Assembly: GCA_022605405.1 (NCBI GenBank)
Contig: JABYQQ010000014.1
Coordinates: forward strand, 1,116,001-1,180,000
Source of the DNA: Earliella scabrosa
Taxonomy: Eukaryota; Basidiomycota; Agaricomycetes; Polyporales; Polyporaceae
Length of the DNA: 64,000 nucleotides
Reading direction: 5' to 3'
The notes below the pieces were generated by a model. It was not told the origin of the DNA. It worked only from the letters and a program-made list of their open reading frames with translations, and ran no database searches. How positions within the stretch are numbered: the stretch's first letter is position 1; the number at the start of each line of letters is the position of its first letter. Both the position numbers and the translations under genes were made by a program. Below are positions 35,455 to 64,000 of the stretch, in pieces.

Positions 35455-35519
35455 CACCTGTGGTCACCACTTTATTTTAAAAAACCCAGACCTTTGTGCT
35501 AGAATCCCATCTTATCTGT

Positions 35520-35950
35520 CCAGACGAATTACAGAGTTGGCTGTAATAACTGTGCAGGACATTCAAATACAGAGTGTTGGGGCTCTGTAATTGACTGTCC
35601 AGACGTTCAATTACAGAGTCCGCATTCTGTAATTGACTGTCCAGACGTTCAATTACAGAGTCCGCATTCTGTAATTGTGGTCCTGGACATTCAATTACAG
35701 AGTGCAGACTCTGTAATATTTGTCCAGGACGTTCAAATACAGAGTGCGAACTCTGTAATAACTGTCTCTGTAATTGCGGTCCTGGACATTTAATACAGAG
35801 TGCGAACTCTGTAATAACTGTCCTGGACATTCAATTACAGAGCCTGTACTCTGTAATTGCGGTCCTGGACGTTTAAATACAGAGTGCGAACTCTGTAATA
35901 ACTGTCCTGGACATTCAAATACAGAGCCCTGCACTCTGTAATTGATGTCT
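35520..35950. repeat. Hairpin array in the left arm of element 1
   Basis: Tandem imperfect units of about 45-55 bp in which ACAGAGT...ACTCTGT pairs alternate with GTCCAGGAC or GTCCTGGAC linkers. Each unit is itself a dyad that can fold into a small hairpin. Apparent Gln/Ser-rich reading frames here are translations of the repeat, not genes. Confidence 0.8.
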
Positions 35951-38019
35951 AGGACATTCTAGAACATGCAGACCCTATTAGATAACGGAATGGGCGCCTT
36001 TTTAACGGTCAAATGCGGTATCTGACCTAATAGGGATGCCCACTGGCGCGTCCTCTAGCTCCCTCACTTCTTTACCTATGGGCATGTATGTGGGTGCGTT
36101 GGATTCGCAGTGAGAGCCTCTATCTAATGGTGCTGCAAGCATAAGGAATTACAGGGGGCGTGCTACATGCAGCTGTATATAGCCACTGCTGTTTACTACT
36201 CTATTGCACGGTCAATAAAAAGCTCACCGAAATTTCACGTCCAAGGTACTGTTAGATGGGGAAAAATCAGGGCTTTCCAACGCACCCTACATCATAGTCT
36301 GGCATAAGCTAGCAACAAAGATATGGTGTAATACATTTTCGCAAAATGTTGCACTTATGTTTGCGTGAGATCTTGGGAACCAGTGCAATCTATGTCACAC
36401 CCCATATACCATCATATTGGCGTTGAGCAGGGCTTTCCAACGGTACCCTGATCACCCCAATCGGTGGTGGTCACTTTACCCTTTCCTCCTGAACCCATTC
36501 CCATTAATTGTCTCATAGCTCCACCGCCACTCATTCTTGTGGTCTGCAAATTTGTAGTAAGGGTGCCTGAATGTGCATCTTATGGTGTACAAAGTATCAG
36601 GAGCTGGTACCACCTACAGCCCGTGTTCTGGACCTAACACACTAAACATCACTCCAACAATGTTTGACCTATTGTGGGATCAGTACCTTATCGATCTCCG
36701 AGATCATTGCTGCATTCTATAGAGATGACTTGAAGCAATGTTGGTTCAGCTCCAGGTACTCAGAGGTGTCTTTGATCTTGATAGAATCTCTTATCAGTGC
36801 TCTCCCTTCCCCCTCATCTAGCTATAGATCCTGCCAATATTTCTGTGGCACAATCTCAGATAAGACAGTTACAAGTATTATGTATAAGATGCAAAAAGAA
36901 TCGCGCAATTTGACCTGGTATTGGCCAAGCTATGACAAAAGTGTTCCGGAAGACACCAAGTGTATACTGTAGTTGCATACAGTTTCATTCAATGCTACTG
37001 CAAACAGGCATGTAAACACACATTCTGGAATATCTCACCCATTTCTGAACAGATTTGACTGATTCTTTTTGCATCTTGTAGGTGATGTCTGTGACTGTCC
37101 TATCTGACATTATGGTACAGCAATATTGACAGGATCTATAGCTAAATGAGGGGGAAGGGAGAGCACTGATAAGAGATTCTATCAAGATCAAAGACACCTC
37201 TGAGTACCTGGAGCTGAACCAACATTGCTTCAAGTCATCTCTATAGAATGCAGCAATGATCTCGGAGATCGATAAGGTACTGATCCCACAATAGGTCAAA
37301 CATTGTTGGAGTGATGTTTAGTGTGTTAGGTCCAGAACACGGGCTGTAGGTGGTACCAGCTCCTGATACTTTGTACACCATAAGATGCACATTCAGGCAC
37401 CCTTACTACAAATTTGCAGACCACAAGAATGAGTGGCGGTGGAGCTATGAGACAATTAATGGGAATGGGTTCAGGAGGAAAGGGTAAAGTGACCACCACC
37501 GATTGGGGTGATCAGGGTACCGTTGGAAAGCCCTGCTCAACGCCAATATGATGGTATATGGGGTGTGACATAGATTGCACTGGTTCCCAAGATCTCACGC
37601 AAACATAAGTGCAACATTTTGCGAAAATGTATTACACCATATCTTTGTTGCTAGCTTATGCCAGACTATGATGTAGGGTGCGTTGGAAAGCCCTGATTTT
37701 TCCCCATCTAACAGTACCTTGGACGTGAAATTTCGGTGAGCTTTTTATTGACCGTGCAATAGAGTAGTAAACAGCAGTGGCTATATACAGCTGCATGTAG
37801 CACGCCCCCTGTAATTCCTTATGCTTGCAGCACCATTAGATAGAGGCTCTCACTGCGAATCCAACGCACCCACATACATGCCCATAGGTAAAGAAGTGAG
37901 GGAGCTAGAGGACGCGCCAGTGGGCATCCCTATTAGGTCAGATACCGCATTTGACCGTTAAAAAGGCGCCCATTCCGTTATCTAATAGGGTCTGCATGTT
38001 CTAGAATGTCCTAGACATC

Positions 38020-38560
38020 AATTACAGAGTGCAGGGCTCTGTATTTGAATGTCCAGGACAGTTATTACAGAGTTCGCACTCTGTATTTAAACGTCCAGGA
38101 CCGCAATTACAGAGTACAGGCTCTGTAATTGAATGTCCAGGACAGTTATTACAGAGTCTGCACTCTGTATTTGAATGTCCAGGACCGCAATTACAGAGTA
38201 CAGGCTCTGTAATTGAATGTCCAGGACAGTTATTACAGAGTTCGCACTCTGTATTAAATGTCCAGGACCGCAATTACAGAGTGCAGGCTCTGTATTTGAA
38301 TGTCCAGGACAGTTATTACAGAGTTCGCACTCTGTATTTGAACGTCCTGGACAAATATTACAGAGTCTGCACTCTGTAATTGAATGTCCAGGACCACAAT
38401 TACAGAATGCGGACTCTGTAATTAAACGTCTGGACAGTCAATTACAGAATGCGGACTCTGTAATTGAACGTCTGGACAGTCAATTACAGAGCCCCAACAC
38501 TCTGTATTTGAATGTCCTGCACAGTTATTACAGCCAACTCTGTAATTCGTCTGGACAGAT
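38020..38560. repeat. Hairpin array in the right arm of element 1
   Basis: Inverted counterpart of the array at 35520-35950, with the same ACAGAGT/ACTCTGT dyads and GTCCAGGAC linkers. It is about 100 bp longer than the left array, so unit number differs between arms while the rest of the arms stays nearly identical. Confidence 0.8.
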
Positions 38561-38618
38561 AAGATGGGATTCTAGCACAAAGGTCCGGGTTTTTTAAAAT
38601 AAAGTGGTGACCACAGGT

Positions 38619-38626
38619 GTTCAGCC
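38619..38626. repeat. Target-site duplication of foldback element 1, right copy
   Basis: GTTCAGCC immediately after the right terminus, matching 35447-35454. Confidence 0.65.
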
Positions 38627-44814: not shown

Positions 44815-45990
44815 CCGTCGTCGGAAATATCTACTTGGTTTGAAATGGGCCATAATGGCAAAAACGATTGATGAGATTTTGGTATATCACTGTTTGAAGT
44901 TTGCACACAATCTGTTTTTTCATTTAACTTGTCTGTCTAACTGAGGTTTTCTATGTAATCCCCAGATGCACTTGGTATTGTTGCTGTGTCACTAATATCA
45001 TTGATAACTACCACATTCAGTGATGAATAATATTTTGGCACTCAAGTGAGCCTCAAGCAGTGAAGCAAACTGATGAAGTACTTCAATTAATGCTTCTGTT
45101 GCCCAATTATTCAATACTATTTTTGACTTGCTGGTGAAGTTGATGGCTGGACAACTAATGCAAAACCTCTCTTTAGAATGCACATATGAAACAGTTTGTG
45201 GATATTTCTCTATAGTCATGATTGAAATTGTATGCATTTAATAACACTAACTCAGATTTCCAGCATGAACAGATGCATATGACCTTGTGTGTATAGCACC
45301 ATCAGATAGAGCTCATTTTTGTGATCTTTATGACATATGATATCATATTTTTTGCTAAGCAAACAAAAGTGATAGGCAGTGTTTACTTGTTTATAAACCG
45401 GCGTTATACACAAATATTACATAAGCAACTTGTAAAAGACCGCCTATTAGATGCGCTTCTAATGATATATAACAAGTCTATATATACATAGAGATCTAGT
45501 GACATGGAATCTCACTTGAAGCACTGCAGTCAATTATGTAAGTCATGTGACCGCAAAATAAGCGCCCGACGGCCCGGAAAATCCGAATGGTCGCGGTTTC
45601 GTTTGCAAACGAAACCGCGACCACGTGCTATTTTTAGCGAACAGGCACTGTAGTGCGACAGATTGTATAAACACTGTTGTGGCCATATCTCAGCCAGTTC
45701 TTATCCAAACATCATGAAAGTGGACTCATTTTGACGGCCTTTAATAGAGCTATGATTGGATCAATACTGATAATTACTGCCACAGCTAGTAGCGATACAA
45801 AGGCAAGCTGTGCTCAGGGCGTCAATGTGACCCTAATAGCGCCTGCCCTAACCCTGTGTCAGGGTTTGATGGTAATAAACTTTGTTACTGGCGCTTATGT
45901 CATGTCTTAGCACAGCATAAGTAGAGAGTAAGCGGAGTCTGAATGTTGTTCCCACGGGGTCGAAAAGGCGTTTGGCGTCTAAGTGGCAAT
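44815..45990. mobile_element. AT-rich block, possible relic related to the foldback elements
   Basis: An abrupt shift to AT-rich, gene-free sequence within a GC-rich region. It contains GCACCATCAGATAGAGCTC (near 45297), matching GCACCATTAGATAGAGGCTC in foldback element 1 (near 37831), and ATATCTCAGCCA (45685), like ATATCTCAGCAACCA in element 2 (53811). No terminal repeats or flanking duplication could be set, so the boundaries are approximate and the relationship rests on short motifs. Confidence 0.35.
45589..45622. repeat. Perfect 34-bp palindrome
   Basis: The half-site GGTCGCGGTTTCGTTTG is followed immediately by its exact reverse complement, with no loop. It lies in the AT-rich block. It could be a terminus-to-terminus junction, a protein-binding dyad or a cruciform-forming site. 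Confidence 0.9.
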
Positions 45991-46242
45991 GTCACCCCCT
46001 AAAGAACGATTTCTTCGGTACCCTCATCAATCGTAATAAGTACAGGAAGCTCGCCCGGGTATGCAGTACGTGCGTCGCCACACGGAAGAAGGCCAGGAGG
46101 TAGGTTTAGTGAAGGCGCATTAAAAATATTGGTAGGAATAGCGGTACGAGTGCGCACGGAATGCCAAAATGTATCCAACAGAAACAAAGAGTCCAAGCAA
46201 AGGTATCCCCTAGAGCGGCGTGGACGGTGGACAATCATCGCG

Positions 46243-49064: not shown

Positions 49065-50206
49065 ATGGACACTCAATTTGATATCCACACCATTATCAAT
49101 CCTACTGGTACGTCTGTGGCTCCCAGCGGCGTCATTGTCACCGGTTTCTGTAGCTGAAGTTTGGGACACCCAGCTACCAAGCTCACGTTCTGTGATGGAC
49201 AGGTTGGAGCACTCTGCTCAGACGCTAGCGTGCTGGTCACTACGCCCAACGCCGACTACATCCCGGAGATCACCGATGGCTTCGTCACCGTCCAGTTGCG
49301 CGCGGATTGTCTGTACGCCCACACCGATCCTCTATTATGGCCGCAGATCCACACGGAGAAGTATCCCTACCTCGCGGCTGTCCCCAAAACGCGGACTCCC
49401 CCTCAGGCTCACTGGGTCATGTGGAGCATGCCTACCCTCGCAAACTTTCTCCCTCTCACCGGCACGCCTGTCAAGGGGTTTGGTAACCTCTCCCCATCTT
49501 TCCTGTCTCCCTTGCAGAGTGAGGTGGCTGAAATGTCCACGCGGGTCCGCGCGCACCTCCTATCTCATCCCCCGTCCGCGCAACGCGAGCAGTTGCGATG
49601 GCACGAGCTTGCCATGCGCCAAGCTCTTTCACGACTAAGACACCTCCCCGCCACGTTCGACGACCAGCGCCTCCAGGTCAAGGAGCTGCAACGACACTGG
49701 ATCATGGCCCACGCTTTCCTCGAGTACCACCAACGCATGCGCGCCGTTGCCGTGGACGACCTCCCACCGCAATATGATCCTATGGCGGTGGGCGCGTGGT
49801 CCTCCAATCCTGCAGTGGTGCAACGCCTCCTTCTGGCCGGTCTACCCGTGTGGTTTGTGCGATCGCCACAGAAGGTGGACACCACCCATGTCCGCATCCT
49901 CCGCGAGGTACAGCCGTCTCTACCGCAGTGCTCCGTCACTCCCTTCCGTGGCCTTTCACCGGCTTACAGGGGCCTGGCGGGCGAACGCCATCTCGACATC
50001 ATGTTCCAAGGCGCAGCGACTTATCACGACCTCGGCGAGAACCAGAGCGTCCGCGCTAGCGCGGTTGAACTCTTCTGTGCGCCCGTCCCCGAGCGTAAAG
50101 TGGCCATCTCAAGCACAGCGACGTCTCCGTCGACGGGCACGCGCGCGTCAGGCGCTGTTCGCACCCATGCCGTTCACGCGTCTCGCGTTCGCGGGTCCAA
50201 TGGCCG
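49065..50206 (+). pseudogene. 5' part of a gene split by foldback element 2
   Basis: Exons 49065-49107 and 49174-50206 with a 66-nt intron (GTACGT...CACCCAG). The protein (MDTQFDIHTIINPTATKLTF, then SVLVTTPNADYIPEITDGFV) is collinear with the intact minus-strand paralogue at 58816-60936 (LVTASPNAEYVPQVVQGIVE) through SPAYRGLAGERHLDIMFQ. Reading is interrupted at the octamer AATGGCCG (50199-50206), the left target duplication. Beyond it the frame enters the element and stops within about 15 codons. The remaining third is at 57762-58777. Function of the family is unknown to me. The start exon matches the position and phase of the first intron in the paralogue. Confidence 0.75.
50199..50206. repeat. 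Target-site duplication of foldback element 2, left copy
   Basis: AATGGCCG, repeated in direct orientation at 57762-57769 on the far side of the 7.55-kb palindrome. Confidence 0.75.
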
Positions 50207-50299
50207 AGCCCATTCAGTCAACTTCCCCATGATCATTGCCCAAAAACCTTGACACTTGCCCACGATCATGGACCAGTGACCACCGGCTGACGATCAAAG

Positions 50300-51715
50300 T
50301 AAGCCACAGTAGTGGAGCAGCTGATCGCTGTCCATGGGTGCCATAGTCATGCAGCAGTTGCTGGGTGGCCGTGTGCCCAGGTTAAATGACTGGTTAGGAG
50401 TGGTACATCAGCTGGTGACTGATGTGTCCATAAATATATGTCAGCTGATCCCTCATCGTGCAACTGCTCACAGGACATTGCCATGGTTGTGTGTCAGCTG
50501 ATCGACTGATGTGTCCATAGATATATGTCAGCTGATCCCTTGTCGCGCGACTGGCCATGGGATATTGCCACAATGATGTGTCAGCTGATTGATTGTCACG
50601 CAACTGCCCACAGGACATTGCCATGGTAGTGCGTCAGCTGATCGCTCATCGTGTGACTGTCCACAGAACATTGCCATGGTCATGCGTCAGCTGATCAGTC
50701 GTCGTGCAACTGGTCCTAGAATGTTGCCATGGTGGTGCGTCAGCTGATCGCTTGCTGCGCGAGTGGCCACAGGACATTGCCATGGTTGTGCATCAGCTGA
50801 TCGGTCATCATGCAACTGCCCACAGGATGTTGCCACAATGATGTGTCAGCTGATCACTCGTCGCACAACTGTCCACAGGACGTTGCCATGGCCATGCGTC
50901 AGCTGACCGCTCGTCGCACGACTGTTCACGGGATGTTGCCATGGCTGTGCGTCAGCTGATCGCTCGTCGCACGAGTGTTCACGGGACGTTGCCATGGTCA
51001 TGCGTCAGCTGATCGCTCGTTGTGCAACTGCCCACAGAACGTTGCCATGGTCATGCGTCAGCTGATCGCTCATGGCGCAATTGTCCACAGGACGTTGCCA
51101 CAATGATGCGTCAGCTGATCACTCGTCGCACGACTGTTCACGGGACGTTGCCATGGCTGTGCGTCAGCTGATCGCTCATCGTGCGACTGTCCACAGGACG
51201 TTGCCATGGCCATGCGTCAGCTGATCCGTTGTGCAACTGCCCACAGAACGTTGCCATGGTCGTGAGTCAGCTGATCGCTTGTCGCACGACTGTCCACAGA
51301 ACGTTGCCATGGTCATGCGTCAGCTGATCGCTCATGGCACAATTGTCCACAGGACGTTGCCACAATGATGCGTCAGCTGATCACTCGTCGCACAACTGTC
51401 CACAGAACATTGCCATGGCCATGCGTCAGCTGACCGCTTGTTGCACGACTGTTCACGGGACGTTGCCATGGCTGTGCGTCAGCTGATCTCTCGTCGCACG
51501 AGTGTTCACGGGACGTTGCCATGGTCATGCGTCAGCTGATCGCTCGTTGTGCAACTGCCCACAGAACGTTGCCATGGTCGTGCGTCAGCTGATCGCTTGT
51601 CGCACGACTGTCCACAGAACGTTGCCATGGTCATGCGTCAGCTGATCGCTTGTCCCACGACTGGTCATCTTCATGTTCATCCATCAGGTGATCACTGGTC
51701 ACATGACCCACCATA
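50300..51715. repeat. Tandem array in the left arm of element 2
   Basis: Roughly 25 units of about 50-53 bp, each with GCGTCAGCTGATCGCTCGT, a CACGACTGTCCACAG or CAACTGCCCACAG segment and a GTTGCCATGG block. Every unit has a CAGCTG palindrome, with point differences between units. Confidence 0.85.
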
Positions 51716-51969
51716 GGATGTTGCCATAGTGGTGCATCAGCGTATTTTTGATCGTGCCCACTTTTCATAGTATCTCAGTACCTAACTCCGGATTCAGAAA
51801 AACTCAGAAATCGTAAGAGAGACTCTCACAATAGTTTCATTCAGTCACCAATTCATCTGCTTCTCAATCTGTAAGAGTGCTCACTATACTGCAGAGATAC
51901 TAGATGGTACAGCATATATATGTATATGATACAGGTGTCTCTTTCTATGGGCAATGCAACCAATACTAA

Positions 51970-52420
51970 TGTGCCCGACATTATTGAACAATCTCCTCTG
52001 CATGTGAAACATGGGTGAGGCTGGCCTTAACCTCAACTACATTATGCATATATATGTACAAAAGTGGAATGTGGCCAACAGAGAATGTGCCCGACATTAC
52101 TGAACATACTTGTCCACATGGGCAACACAGAACAAGCTGGCCTCAATCTCAACCACAATATGCAATGCAAAACAACAAATCTGTGCCCGACAATTTTGAA
52201 CAATATCATCCATATGTGGAGGACAGAACATGCTGGCCTCAATCCCAACCACATTATATAGATGCATCTTTCTAAGTGCAATGCAACCAAAAGAGAATGT
52301 GCCCGACATTATTGGACAATCTCATACATGTGCAGCACACAGTAATGTTATATAGATGTCCCTTTAAAAGTGTAATGCAGCCAGATAGATGTGCCCGACA
52401 TTATTGTCACAACTTGGAAT
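51970..52420. repeat. Dispersed GTGCCCGACATTATTG repeats, left arm
   Basis: The motif GTGCCCGACATTATTGAACA or a close variant recurs near 51971, 52087, 52183, 52300 and 52392 at about 100-bp spacing. Inverted copies occur at the mirrored positions in the right arm (about 55880-56320). Confidence 0.8.
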
Positions 52421-55400
52421 TTGTGAAAATCTGTGGAATATATATGTCTGGTGTTATTGAACCAATGTTGTCATAACAACAACTAGTATTGATTCAGAAG
52501 TCTTTCATAGGTGACAAAACTCTACCAAAACATGTATTTGTGAATTGCAGCCCGACATTACTTTGGATCCAGACATATCATGCAGCGTAATTGATCTCTG
52601 TGAACTATGGCCATGGGTAAACACTGAGCTAACCATATCTTTCATTGAGGCAGCAATCACAATTTACAAGAATGCTTAAGAAAGTTCACAAGCCAGAGGC
52701 AGAGCTTAAAGTCGGGCACACAATATACTGTGAGCAGTGTTCTTGATCTAGCTGTACCAGATTGCAATCATTATCTGCTGCATATAGAATGATGCAGGTT
52801 TTTACCTATATCATTCTATGCCATGGCTATGTCTTGCTACAGAAGTCTATCCTCTTGGAGTTCATTATGTCGGGCATATTGTGATGGTCAGTGTGCATCA
52901 AGTGAATTCAATGGCTAAGAAGAATAAACAAGTGAATATATGATCCAAACAGCGAATCCTCCCAGGCACTATGACCCCTGTAGTGTCAAGATTTGTATTA
53001 CAAACCACCACAGATGTGGTCCAAATGTTGCGTAGTTTCTGGCTGTTCCGTACATTCATTATAAGATCTGCCTATAATCTAGATCATATCACTAATGGCA
53101 CAGAAGCTTACCTAATGACTTGGGCGCTTTTTTGACATCCAAATGCAGTAATCACTGCTGGGGGGGGGGTTACTGACCTGATCTATAGCTCCATCAGTAT
53201 TGCACCTATTCCCATGTATGTAGATGCAATAGATGTGCAATTTTATACTCTATTAGATGGTGCAATGCTGCAAAAAATGATCATCTGATGGAACAGCCAT
53301 GCCTTCAATACTCTAGCAGCCCTCTAGCCAGGGATATCTCTTGCTCTGCTCTAGGATAACATGGGCATCTATGCTCATGAGCAAAATACCATCATATAGG
53401 GATATCCTAGAGCTACTGAACGCATTTTTGTTCAGTGTGTTACATGCAGTATTGATGAAGATATGATGTATTTCATTTTCGCAAAAAGTGGCCACTTTGT
53501 TTGGTCCATTACTTGGGTACTCCTGGGTGCCCTACCATGCCGTTACCACCACTGTGTAGAGATTAAGAAGGGCTTTCCAACGGTATATTATACATCCCAA
53601 ACCATCCATCTCCACCCACCCTCTCCTCCTGACCCCCTTCCCATCAATCTCCTCATATATCCCTTCAGGGGCATCGGATCAACTCGCAACTTTAGAAATA
53701 TATACTACACATATATTGCAGTCTGTTTTTAGGACATGACATGCCACAGTTGCCTACACTGTTCCAGTCATAGCAAACAATTCTCTGCATGCACATTGGT
53801 TGTTTCCCCTATATCTCAGCAACCAGATCATCAATAAGCATGCAGTCTTTTGCAGTCTTTTCATATATTATAGCACCACTTACATACCCATTTTTTGCTC
53901 CCAGAGATGTGTGGATCTGTCTGCATAATCCTATCAGTGGTGAACAGAGATAACCACTTGGTATTAGATCTAGTGTGATTTACATCTCCATAGGTTCAGA
54001 TAGAGATCTCCTAAGTGCCCTGTATTGAATGCAAAAAAAATCACGGAAAACGGTGCAGTACTTGTGGTGATATGGCAAAAGATGTGCCAGAAGGCAGTTA
54101 TGTGAATAGTGCAGCTGCATGTGCTGTGCAGAGTTCATGAAAGGCCATCCAGCACATCTTTTGCCATATCACCACAAGTACTCAACCATTTTCCATAATT
54201 CTTTTTGCATTCAATGCAGAGCCTTTATGAGACCTCTATCTGAAGATGTGGGGGTGTATGGCACACTAGATCTAGTACCAAGTGGTTATCTCTGTTCACC
54301 ACTGATAGCATTGTGCATATAGATCCACACATTTCTGGGGAATAAAAGCTGGTACAGATATAGCTCCATCATATATTGACAGACTGCAACAAACTGCATG
54401 TCAATTGGTGATCTGGTTGCTGAGATATAGGGGGAATATCCAATGTGCATGCAGAATATTGTTTGCTATGACTGGAAAGGTGTAGACAGCTATGGCATGT
54501 AGTATTCAAATAGCAGACTGTACTATGAATCTAGTTTATACACGGAAAATTTCAAGCTGATCCAATGCCTCTAAGGGAATATATAAGGGGATTGATGGGA
54601 AGGGGGTCAGGAGGAGAGGGTGGGTGGAGGTGGATGGTTTGGGGTGTATGATATACCGTTGGAAAGCTCTGCTTAATCCCTACACAATGGTAGTAAAGGC
54701 ATTGTGTGGTACCCAGGGGTACCCAAGTAATGGACCAGACAAAGTGACCACTTTTTGCGAAAACAAAATACATCATCTCTCCATCAATACTGCATGAATC
54801 CCATCACAGGAAACTGTGTTCAGAAGCTCTATAATGTATCTATACAATGGTATAATTTTCATAATGATTTTCTCCCTGGTTCCCCCATCAAAGGGCAAAG
54901 GGGGCTCTCTGCCTAAGGGGTTACCAGAATGTATGCAGTATTGCTACCCAATCAGAGCACACATATATGGATACATTCCACCATTCAATGGAGCTTAGTG
55001 ATGCAAAGCTATTGCAACCACACACTTGTGAATATGTGCAGAATTGAGAGGGTTACAGGCTATCCAAATAATGTCGGGCATGAGACATATGCAGTGGTAT
55101 ATATATCACCCCAAGCACTCAGAGTTCATCTGACTACTGTATAGACATCCAATACAGCTGAGCTTCAAACAGTTGTAAAGAATATTGAACATAACAGCAT
55201 CATTCAATGCAATCAAGGGATACAGTGAAGTCATCAAAAATTGCAGCATTGTTGGCTGTATAGAGACTTACCAGACCAATAGAGAGGAAGCACCAAAACC
55301 ATGTGAGGATACTGCCTGGGAGGATTTGCTGTGTCTGGATCATATATTCACTTGTTTATTCTTCTTAGCCATTGAATTCACTTGATGCACACTGACCATC

Positions 55401-56564
55401 ACAATATGCCCGACATAATGAACTCCAAGAGGATAGACTTCTGTAGCAAGACATAGCCATGGCATAGAATGATATAGGTAAAAACCTGCATCATTCTATA
55501 TGCAGCAGATAATGATTGCAATCTGGTACAGCTAGATCAAGAACACTGCTCACAGTATATTGTGTGCCCGACTTTAAGCTCTGCCTCTGGCTTGTGAACT
55601 TTCTTAAGCATTCTTGTAAATTGTGATTGCTGCCTCAATGAAAGATATGGTTAGCTCAGTGTTTACCCATGGCCATAGTTCACAGAGATCAATTACGCTG
55701 CATGATATGTCTGGATCCAAAGTAATGTCGGGCTGCAATTCACAAATACATGTTTTGGTAGAGTTTTGTCACCTATGAAAGACTTCTGAATCAATACTAG
55801 TTGTTGTTATGACAACATTGGTTCAATAACACCAGACATATATATTCCACAGATTTTCACAAATTCCAAGTTGTGACAATAATGTCGGGCACATCTATCT
55901 GGCTGCATTACACTTTTAAAGGGACATCTATATAACATTACTGTGTGCTGCACATGTATGAGATTGTCCAATAATGTCGGGCACATTCTCTTTTGGTTGC
56001 ATTGCACTTAGAAAGATGCATCTATATAATGTGGTTGGGATTGAGGCCAGCATGTTCTGTCCTCCACATATGGATGATATTGTTCAAAATTGTCGGGCAC
56101 AGATTTGTTGTTTTGCATTGCATATTGTGGTTGAGATTGAGGCCAGCTTGTTCTGTGTTGCCCATGTGGACAAGTATGTTCAGTAATGTCGGGCACATTC
56201 TCTGTTGGCCACATTCCACTTTTGTACATATATATGCATAATGTAGTTGAGGTTAAGGCCAGCCTCACCCATGTTTCACATGCAGAGGAGATTGTTCAAT
56301 AATGTCGGGCACATTAGTATTGGTTGCATTGCCCATAGAAAGAGACACCTGTATCATATACATATATATGCTGTACCATCTAGTATCTCTGCAGTATAGT
56401 GAGCACTCTTACAGATTGAGAAGCAGATGAATTGGTGACTGAATGAAACTATTGTGAGAGTCTCTCTTACGATTTCTGAGTTTTTCTGAATCCGGAGTTA
56501 GGTACTGAGATACTATGAAAAGTGGGCACGATCAAAAATACGCTGATGCACCACTATGGCAACA

Positions 56565-57410
56565 TCCTATGGTGGGTCATGTGACCAGTGATCACCTGAT
56601 GGATGAACATGAAGATGACCAGTCGTGGGACAAGCGATCAGCTGACGCATGACCATGGCAACGTTCTGTGGACAGTCGTGCGACAAGCGATCAGCTGACG
56701 CATGACCATGGCAACGTTCTGTGGGCAGTTGCACAACGAGCGATCAGCTGACGCATGACCATGGCAACGCCCCGTGAACACTCGTGCGACGAGAGATCAG
56801 CTGACGCACAGCCATGGCAACGTCCCGTGAACAGTCGTGCAACAAGCGGTCAGCTGACGCATGGCCATGGCAATGTTCTGTGGACAGTTGTGCGACGAGT
56901 GATCAGCTGACGCATCATTGTGGCAACGTCCTGTGGACAATTGTGCCATGAGCGATCAGCTGACGCATGACCATGGCAACGTTCTGTGGACAGTCGTGCG
57001 ACAAGCGATCAGCTGACGCATGACCATGGCAACATCCTGTGGACAGTCGCACGACGAGCGATCAGCTGACGCATGGCCATGGCAATGTTCTGTGGACAGT
57101 TGTGCGACGAGCGATCAGCTGACACATCATTGTGGCAATGTTCTGTGGACAATTGTGCCATGAGCGATCAGCTGACACATCATTGTGGCAACGTCCTGTG
57201 GACAATTGCGCCATGAGCGATCAGCTGACTCATGACCATGGCAACGTCCTGTGGACAGTTGCATGACGAGCGATCAGCTGACGCACAGCCATGGCAATGT
57301 TCTGTGGGCAGTTGTGCGAAGAGTGATCAGCTGACGCATCATTGTGGCAACGCCCCGTGGACAGTCGCGCGACGAGCGATCAGCTGACGCATCATTGTGG
57401 ACCAACCACC
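56565..57410. repeat. Tandem array in the right arm of element 2
   Basis: Inverted counterpart of the array at 50300-51715 with the unit CGATCAGCTGACGCATGACC plus ATGGCAACGT and TGTGGACAGT segments. It holds only about 15 units, so array length differs between arms. Confidence 0.85.
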
Positions 57411-57761
57411 AACAAGCTGATCCATGATGGTGAGCACTTTTTCTTTCTGCCATGATCAGCTGACACACAACCCTGGATGCCATGTGTTGATCAACTGACA
57501 CATCTCCATGGGTCCTGTGATGTTGCGTCTGAGCACCGCTCACACCCATACTCCAGTCTGTCACCTCACAGACCACTCATTTCAACCAGGTGCATAGCCC
57601 CACAGCAACTGACATACGCTTATGGGTCTCACCCATGGCGATCAGCTGTTCTACTACCATGGCTTACTTTGCACATCAGCTGGTGGTCACTGGTCCATGA
57701 TAGTGGGCAAGTGTCAAAGTTTTTGGGCAATGATCATGGGTACCATCTACTGAGTTATGTG

Positions 57762-57769
57762 AATGGCCG
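57762..57769. repeat. Target-site duplication of foldback element 2, right copy
   Basis: AATGGCCG, the second copy of the octamer at 50199-50206. Confidence 0.75.
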
Positions 57770-58777
57770 CGCGCGCACTGTTCCATGTAAGGCTTCGTGT
57801 GCTCCCCGAAAGCTGTCTGAGTGCGATAACTCCACCTAGATCCTCCCTCCCAACCTCACGCGTCCCATGTACGTGGGCGCGACAAGTTCATCGACGTCGA
57901 GCATCCCTGGATGCCTCCTCAGTTGACCGCATGGAAGCGGGCGATGTCGGGCGTTGATCGGTCCGGTTGCGCCAGACCTGCATGTGATCTCTGGGGATAT
58001 TGGATTCCCGAACCAGCCCTCATCGTCGGGCCGGCTCAGGCGGAGCGCACTCAGCGATATATACTCAATTGGCTGCGAGCACAACCCATTTGGCTGTACG
58101 TTCTGCGGGTCCCCGATGCTACGCCGCTCAAGGTCGCTCCTCAAGCGTGGCGCACCTTCCTTAACGGGGTACCAGATGACGGTAGCAGTCTCACTCGGTG
58201 CGGCCGCCGCGGCTTTGAAATCAAGGCTATATTCGGGTCCGTCTTCTCACAGGAGGATTTCGACCCGACCACACAGGAACCAGTTCAGTGGCATGACCTG
58301 GTGCTTACGCATGTGTCCGATGCCCAGGCGCCGTGGGTCCTTTGGGAGATGTTTGAATTGGGGTTCCGCCATGAGCTCTTGGCATTGGATCGCTATCTTC
58401 GCCCGACTGCTGGACGCCGTGGGGAGGCCAGACGTGAAGAACAGTTGTCGCAGGTTTTTCCCGGGCAAACTTTGCACGCGGTCACCTCGCTGCCGACCTC
58501 ATCCTCCCCTGGCCTATTTTCTCCCGTAGTGCACCGCCGAATCAATGCGCTCAACGCGTTTCGCGAAGTGCTCTCTGAGTGGCCCGGCTGTCCGTCCGAC
58601 GTCGCGGACATATCCCGACCGCTGCGCGGGTCCGATTCTGAGGAGATGATCGAGGAGATGGAGTTTCAGGTGGTCGTTTCTACGTCGCAACCTTTTTCTC
58701 TCATTCCGGGCGCGCTCCCCTGGTTCCCCATTTATCACCGGCCCCTATCTCATGATGTCTGCTGCACCCAGTTGTAA
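57762..58777 (+). pseudogene. 3' part of the gene split by foldback element 2
   Basis: After the octamer the exon continues to 57786, then a 53-nt intron (57787-57839, GTAAGG...CCACCTAG) and a last exon 57840-58777. The intron sits where the intact paralogue has its second intron, in the same phase 1. The encoded part (EHPWMPPQLTAWKRAM, WGYWIPEPALIVGP, VLWEMFELGFRHELLALDRY) aligns throughout with HRWMPPQLDAWATAL, WGYWIPHPHLLLGP and VIWEAYELGFRYELLALDRY of the paralogue. Summed with the 5' exons, counting the octamer once, the coding length is 2031 nt, exactly 677 codons. As it stands the 3' part has no promoter of its own and is probably silent. Confidence 0.75.
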
Positions 58778-58815: not shown

Positions 58816-60936
58816 CTACAATGCACCCAGCGCAGGCTTCGGGAGACCGCGCGGCAACACGGGCGCTCGCCCTGAGTGCCGGAAGAACGTATCTACATAG
58901 AAAGATGCTATATCAAACTCCCGGCGTTCGATCGCGCTAATGTCGTCGCTTAGGCGAAGCGGGGCGGCAGCGACTAGATGCGGACATCCGGGCCACCTCA
59001 TGACAACGGCGCGCAGCGCATTCAGCGCGGGGACTCTCCTGCAGACCAGTGACGCGAACAGCCCGCACTGGTCTGTTTCCGGCAGCCATGGAACGGCGCG
59101 GAGAGACCGTTCCGGAAAGACCGCGCCGAGCAGTTCTTCGCGAGCCAGGTCTTGGTGCGGTCCGTGACAGGGTTGGAGATAGCGGTCTAGAGCCAGTAAT
59201 TCGTATCTAAAGCCAAGCTCGTACGCCTCCCAGATGACCCAGGGAGCCAGGTCGTCTGGAACGACATCGAACGTTCGTCCATGCCAAGTCACCGCGTCGT
59301 GGTTCGCTGGGTCCAGGTCGTCGTCTTGGAATGCGCCACCGAAAAGATGCTTGATTTCCAAAAACCGTTTGCATCGTACAGTGTGAGTGTTCAGGTCGGC
59401 AGGAGCTCCGTGAAGATATGTTCGCCAACACTGGGTGGACATTCGGGTCGGATTGGCGTCAGGTGTGCGTAGCAAGTGCAGCCAGGCGGGGAGGGCTCGG
59501 ACCCAATTGTTTAGATAGGTCCTGGCGCGAGAGTCGGCGCGCGGACCCAGGAGCAGGTGGGGATGCGGAATCCAGTATCCCCACCACTCCCCGGGTTTCC
59601 TTAGGTGCGCCGACGTGTGTGCTCGGGCTAGCGCAGTCGCCCACGCATCCAACTGCGGTGGCATCCAACGATGGGCCAGTTCGTGGAATTTGTCGCCCGC
59701 GGTCACCGACGGCCTTGTGGCCGTCGCCTTTCCTAAATCGGCAATTGAGTACGGGTTGGGCGTCTGGCGGTCAGGCCAGGACCGTACTCACCTTGCAGCC
59801 TCGTATTTGGAGCAGCATCGCGCTTGGTGGGCGTGCACCTGTCATCCATAGAGAGCAATTGATCTCTAGCAGTCGCCGCTTTGCTCTCAAGTTGCGAGAC
59901 CGGAGTGGGATAGTGGGTGGGGCTGAAGAAGTTGGACGTGGGACAGCGTGACATGTCTACATAGTGGTTTCCCGGGCGAAGGGCGACGTCCAGATGCGCT
60001 TCTCCAACCAAGCCTTTATACAACGGCCTGGCGTCGTCCAAAAGCAGCGGCGGTGTGGATATGCCCTTGAGGACGCACATGGAGGGTAGGACTTCACAGC
60101 CGTCAGGCACCAGCTGCGCCGAACCTTTGTGTACGAACCACACAGGTACCCCAAGTGCGCTCAGGAAATCCACGACGGCGAGATCTGATGTCCAAGCGCC
60201 CATCAGGTCGGTGCGAGAAGGTTGGGAAGCGTCGGGAGCCTGGAGGGTGATCATCCCGTACCATTCCAAGAAGGCCCAGGCGAGTAGCCAGTGCCTTTGA
60301 GCCTCGGTGAACTGCAACACCGCGTCCCGAAATGATGACGGGATCTGAAGTAGACGGCGAGCGGCCGCGCGCATTCCATAGCCGAACCAACGCAGATGGG
60401 TGAGCGAAGGAACACCTGCTGGAGGTTGCGCAACAAAGGCTTCAATGCGCTCGTCCATTTGGTCCACGCAACGTCTGAGGCGTTCAGTCGCTTGCGGCGC
60501 CAATTGGCCAAATCCTCGGATTGGGCATCCGCCACAGGGGACAAAGTCGGCGACATCAGGTAACGTCCAGATGGGACTGTCGGGATGGGGAGAGCACCTG
60601 CGTTTAGGTATGGCCACCAGGAAGGCATACTTCGGCGTATAAATCTGCGGCCATTGGAGCGGATCGGGGTATCCGTATCGCCCATTGGCGTGCAACTGGA
60701 TTTCGACGATACCTTGAACGACTTGTGGAACGTACTCCGCATTGGGCGAAGCGGTTACCAAAGACCCGCATTGTGACACGGTAGCGCCGCGCAGGCGGGT
60801 CCCAGGATTGGCTACGAATGGGCTTGCTGTTAGCTTTGGCCGATAATTGTCAGTGCCAACCAGGCTCACCTATAGTACTCGGGTGTTGGAGAGGTCTCTG
60901 GGTTTCAGCGTGCGCCTGGCCCTGAGAGAACCGCAT
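58816..60936 (-). CDS. Uncharacterised protein, intact paralogue of the split gene, 667 aa
   Basis: Minus-strand exons 60936-60870, 60811-59792 and 59732-58816, with introns of 58 nt (GTGAGC...TTCGTAG) and 59 nt (GTGAGT...GATTTAG), give 668 codons including stop. The protein is rich in Trp, Pro and Arg, with conserved blocks LQWPQIYTPKYAFLVAIPKR, AQRHWLLAWAFLEWYGM, LGVPVWFVHKG and ARPLYKGLVGEAHLDVAL in the first two thirds, and WGYWIPHPHLLLG and ELGFRYELLALDRYL in the last third. I recall similarly built uncharacterised proteins in many Agaricomycetes but cannot name a domain. It lies convergent to the split copy, only 38 bp from its stop, and about 300 bp from the transposase gene, so it may be cargo of a transposon. 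Confidence 0.75.
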
Positions 60937-61254: not shown

Positions 61255-64000
61255 TCAACATCCCTGGGTACTCAGACGTGAGACAACAACAGCCCAATCC
61301 TCCTTCGACTTGGCATTGTCCCCATGTTCCAGCAAAGGCATAACGGGCTGAGTTGGCGCAGTGAGCTAGCGTGATTGACCCGTGAAGCATCCAACCACTT
61401 ACCAGTGAGTAATCAAGTCGATCTTCCGTAATCTTGATATCTTTCTGCAGGCTGACGAACGCGCGGAAGAGCGCGTGCTCCTCAGGGCTCGCGCTCTTCT
61501 TGCCCATCATGTCGAGGATACTGGCGGTGACTGCGCTGAAGACGCCGCTCGACATCCGCAGCCATGCGATCGAACATGTCAGCCTTTTCCAGGGCATACG
61601 CTTTGGACCCCGGAGTGTGGTACTTGGGGAGACCTTCCACGCAACGACGCCACTCGCGAGCCGCAGTTCGGAATCCGGCTCGCGCCCGCCAGGCATCAGC
61701 AATCAATAGATTCACCTCCTCGTCTGTCCGGAGCTTCGCCGCCCATGTCCGGAACCAATCGACTCGGCGAGCTGCAGGGAGAGCGTCTCAGCAAACGGAG
61801 AGTCCTTGGCAGCACGCCCTGCCACTCACTCTCTTGCTCCCAGTCCGCCCGATCGTCTACACTAGACGAACGCGGCCCGACCACATGGAAGATCCACGAG
61901 CGTGTCCTCTTGCTGTCCCCTGCATTTCTAGTCGCCTTGAGCGAGGTGACTTGGAGATCCTTTTGCGTATCGATGCGGCGCAGTGGCTCAGGAATCCAGG
62001 TGCCCTGCGGCAAGGGAGGGAGACACGATTGCAAGGTAACGAGGCGGTCGAAGTTGTGGTTGTAGATGTCCGCGACCGCGACGGCGTCCTTGGCGGTCGC
62101 GCTGATATCCTTCTTGCTTCGGAGGTTGGCTGCCTGACCGCGCACATGCTTGTCCTTGACCTGAATGAGCACAGCGCGGTGACGCACTTTCGTGCGTACG
62201 TCCGCCAGTAGATCGTACGCCTGCCCGATGCGAAGAGTGAGCTCGTATGTGGCACATAACATCGCCCATTCGTCCCGCAGGGTCTCCTTGGACCAAGACG
62301 AGGGCAGACCCAACGTCTCACCCTCGGGAGCGCCTGGATCCAGTTGCTCCTCGTCAAGGTCGTCCACGAGAAGTTCCATGTCGTCCGAGCTGTCGTCTTC
62401 AAGACCTAAATCGGACAGAACGCCGTCTAGGCACTTCCGGAGCTCGATTCTCCATGCTCGGATGCGCCCCCGCAGCATGCGACGGCTAGACCCAATGCTG
62501 TTGCGCCACATCTCCAAAGAGTGCGTTCCATCCTCCAACAATTCCTCTCCGCGGCGACTTCCCTGGTACCGTTTGATGCGCTGCTGGAGCTTCAGCCTGT
62601 GTCATACTTAAGCATGCATGGCGTAGTAGAAAAGAGAGATGCATGCGCGTACTGCTCGGCTTCCAACTCGACGCCCTGTCGAAAACATTCGGCGATGGCA
62701 ACCGACGGGCTTCGAACAGTGCTGCCCGCGGGTCTTTCGCAGCCGACGCCTGACCCTCTGCCGCCTGAGGGGGCTCGCTCGACGTCCTCGCACACTGTGA
62801 CAGAGCAGTCGGGGTGCTGTTCGGGAGCGGGACTGGGTTGGGAAGAGCCAGAGCACCCGCTATCCCGCTGGTTCGCCGACAGCGCCGGCGCCTCGCCCTC
62901 CGGGCCGCTTGGCTCCGGGTTAGACGTCATAGCGAGCGCTGCGTGCAGGTTCGCGGTGGAAGTGCCCGCGTCGCTGGAGAGCAACTGGGCCAACGCCTTG
63001 CCTTTACTAGGAACTTACGAGTGGCGCAACATCAGTCCACTATCTTGCAGTCAAACGGCGAAGGAACCTCACCGTGTGTCTCGTCAAGGACAAACACGCT
63101 GCGCTTGGCGGTCTTGCGTGGTTTGTAGGTGGACGGCGTCGGGGCTTGGTCGTCAATTTCCAGCGCCAACCACTGTTTCACAACCTCGAGGCCTGCTTCC
63201 TCTGTGAGAGCGGCCAGATCCATGGTTTGCTTGAGCTGCAGAAGCAACAGCTCCTTGATCTTGCTGGCGATGTACCGGGCTGTCACAATGTGGCGCGTGA
63301 GAATCATCCCAAGACAGATGCGGCGATGGGAGAGTACCTCGGGTTACGTTCTTGTGCCAATTCCATCGATTGAAGTGGTCGCATATGATGTCGTGGCGGC
63401 ACCCGCCGTTCATTTCCTTGGTGCATCCACCCACCGCGTTGTGCTCAGCCCATCCTTGTTCCGGAGTCTCTCCATTGGATTGCCCGCAGCCCTGCTTGTA
63501 CCCCAAACAGTACTCGCGCTGACAGGATTCCTGGTGCGCGAGGATGTGCATCTGAGGAAGCAGGATCTTGAGCTCCTCGATGATCTTCTTCTGCTCAGGG
63601 GGGAGCTTCCACTGATCCCACCGTGCCAGGATCTTAGCGATGTACTCGCATCCCACGTCGTACGTCAACACATGCTCCACGAGATCTTCGCTGCCCTCTA
63701 ACGCGCCTGAGACAGCTAGATCCACGATGGGAAACCTGGTGGATATCATCAACTCCGAAGGCAAGCCACGGGACATGGCGGCACGTACTGTTCGCCACCC
63801 AACAGGTCTACGACTCCTCGAGCGCGGTAGCATCCGTGTCTGATGCAGCACACTCCTACCACTCCGGAGATCTCCACGTTGCGAAACTTACCCACACGCT
63901 GGGAGCGAGTAACTTTGAATCCACTGCATGTCTGGACCTGCATCAGACGGGAGGGTGTTAGGAGGACTCCACAATGGCGGTGGGCCCACTGACCGGTTGC
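61255..64000 (-). CDS. KDZ-family transposase, C-terminal 759 aa, cut by the window edge
   Basis: Minus-strand exons 63937-63789, 63735-63338, 63279-63073, 63013-62653, 62596-61830, 61771-61600, 61535-61403 and 61347-61255 sum to 760 codons including stop; earlier exons lie beyond 64000. GVVGVCCIRHGCYRARGVVD, LTYDVGCEYIAKILARWDQW, ILLPQMHILAHQESC, YCLGYKQGCGQSNGETPEQG and WAEHNAVGGCTKEM are the signature blocks of Kyakuja-Dileera-Zisupton transposases. The Asp of YDVGC and the Glu of GETPEQGW are likely catalytic residues of the RNase H fold. A helical C-terminal region follows (TDEEVNLLIADAWRARAGF). The 64-nt intron 61599-61536 is inferred because the frame changes there; a frameshift is the alternative. 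The CxC zinc-binding N terminus common in the family is off the edge. Confidence 0.85.

Follow-up and report, generated by a model that had tools for sequence, protein, structure and literature searches.

A giant palindromic foldback transposon in a host gene of Earliella scabrosa, probably a non-autonomous member of the KDZ superfamily

Drosophila FB and Mutator-type foldback transposons have long inverted arms of short tandem units, and target duplications of ~9 bp. Giant foldbacks are already known from Galileo (P superfamily, Drosophila), for which the parts of the sources available to us give 7- or 8-bp duplications (PMC4168063, PMC3573991). Galileo copy 112 of Drosophila willistoni has 9,021 bp, arms of 4,246 and 4,680 bp holding tandem repeats and a foreign transposon, and no transposase (PMC4168063). 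According to the available sections of Kojima 2025 (PMC12730594), Zisupton has 8-bp duplications, TET+ Kyakuja has 7-bp duplications and CA..TG termini without terminal inverted repeats (TIRs), and TET+ Kyakuja alone is reported from Polyporales. Here we describe a giant foldback from the polypore Earliella scabrosa. It lies in a stretch of 64,000 bp (contig JABYQQ010000014.1, C14:1116001-1180000, hereafter the window), and genome-wide searches covered the 51.67-Mb assembly with its 48 contigs, named here C plus a number. The giant very probably belongs, as a non-autonomous foldback transposon, to a KDZ family in which full-length members carry TET/JBP; its duplication length is most like that of Kyakuja. 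No giant KDZ foldback was found in print among open-licence full texts.

The giant has the structure of the foldback class, with long inverted arms and internal tandem repeats (Table 1). The long palindrome reported by an earlier sequence-only reading was recovered: the arms 51227-52951 and 55332-57056 have 1,725 nt and 99% identity, and the best inverted self-match reached 3,448 bits, against ≤38.3 in 50 Markov-1 simulations, which is far beyond chance. Identity differed between the parts of the arms. The AT-rich parts had one mismatch in 1,219 compared positions and two gap columns (1,221 columns), the adjoining array parts were 98.3% identical, and the outer parts 84.7%, with gaps in 157 of 760 columns. 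The longest ATG frame in the giant had 97 aa, below the mean of 121 in 100 block-shuffled copies (maximum 238), and a protein encoded by the element was rejected. Having no transposase frame, it can only be a non-autonomous KDZ member. Rfam gave no matches at gathering score in the whole window. The description of the element as array-bearing and gene-free was borne out.

Table 1 Features of the giant foldback and its insertion site, in window coordinates.
Feature	Position	Strand	Remarks
Host gene, 5' part	49065..50205	+	ATG at 49065 according to the sequence-only reading; paralogue match 49161-50033, E 1.5e-59; P0012
Target duplication AATGGCC, left copy	50199..50205	+	7-bp length set by kin copies
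Whole element	50206..57761	+	7,556 bp; first bases GAGCCCATTCAGT, last bases CTACTGAGTTATGTG; from flanking duplication, ends and kin copies
Left end	50206..50440	+	98.7% identity to C36 copy, 95.3% to C18 element
Left array, 53-bp unit	50441..51741	+	Tandem Repeats Finder: 21.5 copies, 50527-51663; resemblance to C18 element extends to 51741 and no further
Left AT-rich arm	51742..52972	+	Sole other genomic match on C36
Central nested decayed foldback, CACC..GGTG group	52973..55320	.	Core at 53072-55059; terminal repeat discernible from 52975
Right AT-rich arm	55321..56542	-	Inverted copy of left AT-rich arm
Right array, 53-bp unit, inverted	56543..57392	-	14.6 copies, 56620-57392
Right end	57393..57761	+	Terminal 102-103 bp at 85% identity to right end of C18 element
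Target duplication AATGGCC, right copy	57762..57768	+	7-bp length set by kin copies
Host gene, 3' part	57769..58777	+	Paralogue match 57869-58729, E 4e-86; codon phases; P0012 tail
Host-gene intron GTAAGG..CACCTAG	57787-57839	+	Within 3' part
Intact host-gene paralogue	58816..60869	-	38 bp from host gene; open frames, matches

The insertion into a protein gene was supported from two sides. The two gene halves aligned collinearly with the adjacent paralogue, both on a single strand, and their codon phases were consistent with removal of the element plus one octamer. A protein search with the 5' half found a public ENA protein from a 16,393-bp contig (P0012), which before the junction is identical to the window in 342 of 347 residues. 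Beyond the junction it continues with ARTVPCKASCAPRKLSECDNST, the translation of window 57771-57836 (22/22 residues). As its residues run on across the junction, another strain or close relative carries, at the protein level, the gene uninterrupted, with a single copy of the target sequence and no trace of the element. The empty allele by which the sequence-only reading proposed to check the insertion thus exists. Within the same assembly an empty allele was rejected, the 5' gene half occurring once. Pfam gave no match in the host-gene pieces scanned, and the named relatives were hypothetical proteins from Ganoderma leucocontextum and Earliella scabrosa.

The element is flanked by the octamer AATGGCCG in direct orientation, found within the window only at 50199 and 57762, as the sequence-only reading had it. 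The 8-bp target duplication read from this octamer was rejected, since the flanks of two kin copies agree over 7 bp only. On C35 the left flank is CAGAGAA followed by GAGCCC and the right flank CAGAGAA followed by T; on C8, both flanks read CCCCATG, the next base being the element's G at the left end and T at the right end. In addition, 18 of 18 related left ends (matched at ≤3 mismatches) start with G. By this comparison, the G at 50206 is the element's own first base and the duplication is 7 bp (AATGGCC). The flanks on C26 (TTTCCGG) and C18 (ATGCACC) fit 7 bp as well, the next base there being G, as in the window. In each of the five family members with both ends examined (window, C18, C26, C35 and C8), an exact 7-bp duplication was present.

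The family affiliation comes from the ends. The left end of the giant was found in two other genomic places, on C36 and C18. On C18 it opens a 27.3-kb element flanked on both sides by ATGCACC, whose right end also matches that of the giant (Table 1). This element encodes a KDZ transposase domain (E 5e-28), together with CxC2 (2.2e-28) and Tet_JBP (3.8e-14), so that the giant has both termini in common with a KDZ-encoding element. The previous statement that no named family fits therefore fails at the superfamily level. A tree was built from KDZ pieces of this genome alone. Of 31 loci compared with the C18 piece, 22 gave a match; after removal of one with <81 residues, the tree had 21 of them plus C18. 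The C18 transposase grouped with those on C26, C35, C37, C24 and C4 (support 99/100), apart from the CACC-type ones on C28 and C36. All six members of this group had a Tet_JBP match ~3 kb from the KDZ match. A further KDZ transposase piece (PF18758, E 8.2e-26), of a lineage other than that of C18, lies on the minus strand of the window at 63156-63887.

Three of these KDZ + TET elements (C26:342559-363163, C35:36597-57531 and C37:272-20378) are near-identical: the C26 and C35 copies did not differ over the 3,567 bases compared, and C37 differed at five. They look recently active. Extension outward reached termini that resemble the window's, with GAGCCCATTCAGT at the left and CTACTGA..TATGTG at the right. 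The search with these end patterns gave 18 left matches (one in the reversed-pattern control) and 18 right matches (four in the control), 14 of the latter exact; the window, C36 and C18 are not among them, their ends being too diverged. By position and strand, 16 pairs were formed, leaving two left and two right ends unpaired. Four pairs enclose both KDZ and Tet_JBP, namely those on C26 (20.6 kb), C35 (20.9 kb), C37 (20.1 kb) and C24 (25.6 kb, ends matched with three and two mismatches). The other pairs were ten of 7.1-8.8 kb and two on C7, of 3.5 and 6.7 kb.

The ten kin of 7.1-8.8 kb have similar ends and are located on C1, C4, C8, C11 (two), C17, C18, C21, C22 and C30. A CACCTGTAG-type terminal repeat occurs exactly once in each, at a distance of 2.2-2.35 kb from the left end; the giant likewise has one, at 2.77 kb. 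As candidates for further giants they were rejected: a 121-bp stretch from C8, the one stretch tested, occurred once in each, with no inverted partner.

The C36 locus is a second copy of the giant. It is cut off by the start of its contig, ~190 bases short of the palindrome centre, and a matching right end was found nowhere else in the assembly. With this copy, and with the kin on C18, C26, C35 and C8 and their 7-bp flanks, the search for further copies suggested by the sequence-only reading was productive. The giant and the C36 copy are 96.9% identical in the arm and 97.8% in the left part of the inner element, indicating that the composite predates the split of the two copies. Against C36, the arms of the window have 38 and 40 mismatches (~3% each). 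Being one mismatch apart from each other, they would either have been homogenised, or one of them made, after the copies split; a few differences between the arms could be masked by assembly polishing.

The central 2.35 kb form a separate, decayed palindrome with arms 81% alike. The terminal repeat that begins at 52975, also decayed, belongs to a second KDZ group (ends CACC..GGTG), and window 53072-55059 has 81-82% identity with the core of a foldback of this group on C6. No right terminal repeat of the inner element was recognisable in the giant. That the central foldback simply inserted there and made a 7-bp duplication of its own was rejected: the right terminal repeat is unrecognisable, and the edge bases ACTATGA and GGATACT do not repeat each other.

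With respect to the CACC..GGTG group itself, 15 loci were collected, ten with both ends counted and five dropped. Exact 7-bp duplications were present at seven of the ten, and none at three. Nine further end pairs gave six exact 7-bp duplications and three without; three of the nine were 10.9-11.1 kb long and had a KDZ match. Two CACC-type elements, C4:838497-841478 and C4:857304-860359, have no duplications, and their flanking bases are mutually reverse complement, the pattern that an inverted duplication of a single insertion would leave; the two are therefore not independent cases in the tally of elements that lack duplications. The window contains a second complete foldback at 35455-38619 (3,165 bp), with ends CACCTGTGGTCACC, 42-bp arrays and an exact 7-bp duplication, TTCAGCC. 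Its core is distantly similar to the C6 core (70% over 152 and 67% over 206 columns) and related to the centre of the giant in shorter pieces. Elsewhere in the window, 45001-46000 has 40% G+C within surroundings of ~57%, with no notable inverted repeat there.

Several points weigh against the assignment of the giant to the TET-carrying KDZ elements as a transposon moved in trans. The right end shared with C18 is only ~100 bp at 85%, and the right half of the C36 copy is missing from the assembly, so that a palindromic form of this second copy is only putative. The transposase gene on C18 is seen as exons and is only putatively intact. No KDZ transposase is encoded by the giant, which has no frame above 97 aa, and its movement in trans is thus read from its ends. 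The continuity of the host-gene frame was checked through phase and relatives only.

That the palindrome is false, produced by a read folded back on itself, is extremely unlikely. The near-perfect identity of the AT-rich arms and the break of C36 shortly before the same centre are typical of palindromes that are hard to assemble, and short-read polishing could conceal differences; against this, the outer arms diverge and the array lengths are unequal, the giant's two ends correspond to the two distinct ends of the C18 element, and the giant has a target duplication and a known empty site. A slightly less remote, still very improbable explanation is that the giant is moved by another superfamily, KDZ and TET being mere passengers, or nested elements, in the element on C18. 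That element is of unusual length and has other open frames, and the giant starts with GA.., compared with CA.. in the available description of Kyakuja (PMC12730594). The four independent pairs of similar ends that enclose KDZ and Tet_JBP (the first three, on C26, C35 and C37, near-identical in the compared stretch; the fourth on C24) speak for KDZ, and the C18 transposase falls with those of the end-paired elements.

Somewhat more weight, although still little, goes to a later origin of the palindrome, in which a non-palindromic element was inserted and its right arm made afterwards by local inverted duplication. The arms indeed resemble each other far more than either resembles the C36 copy, an identity that gene conversion also explains. 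The inverted copy moreover ends before a proper right terminus that abuts the target duplication, so that the last 370 bp would need to have been spared.

For the giant as a non-autonomous KDZ transposon, we propose the following course of events. The palindrome would have arisen when an inverted copy of the left half, comprising the 53-bp array plus the AT-rich stretch, was placed beside the right terminus, an old foldback of another KDZ group sitting at the pivot. The KDZ transposase of a 20-27-kb relative would recognise the two different ends and excise the giant, which would then be pasted into the host gene with a 7-bp stagger. Gene conversion may keep the arms near-identical. The 53-bp arrays resemble repeats found close to the termini of many DNA transposons and may be sites that the transposase binds.

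Both KDZ groups, the one with GAGCCC..TATGTG ends and TET and the one with CACC..GGTG ends, have gene-free foldbacks. This raises the tentative, and rather doubtful, possibility that KDZ transposition yields long palindromes regularly, and not just by accident. On this reading the arms evolve concertedly. A distantly conserved palindromic core is found within elements of differing ends and arrays (the C6 family, window 35455-38619 and the centre of the giant). If the idea were true, the hairpin or core would be a working part, e.g., a substrate aiding the KDZ transposase in trans.

The findings place a giant foldback in the KDZ superfamily and suggest that host genes receive gene-free passengers through KDZ elements that carry TET. 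With its known empty site and, in the same genome, a second copy and full-length kin that are near-identical, the giant offers a system for studying how arms become and stay palindromic.

Among the described systems, the Drosophila FB and Mutator-type foldbacks resemble the giant in their long inverted arms of short tandem units, and differ from its 7-bp duplication and KDZ kin. In build, the nearest analogue is Galileo copy 112, a giant foldback with arms >4 kb and tandem repeats; it belongs to another superfamily and kingdom and, as described in the part available, has its foreign insert in both arms, compared with the centre in the giant. Among the subset of frames scanned, none matched a P-element family; the transposase found in the C18 element is KDZ. 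Zisupton shares the KDZ superfamily and differs in its duplication, 8 bp versus 7 bp. The TET+ Kyakuja of Agaricomycetes are unlike the giant in three respects, as far as their description in the available sections extends (PMC12730594): its left terminus is GAGCCC and not CA, its ends share a short imperfect inverted motif where Kyakuja has no TIRs, and a gene-free palindrome is absent from that description. They are like it in the KDZ transposase and TET/JBP of its full-length kin, in the 7-bp duplication, in the 3' TG and in their occurrence in Polyporales.

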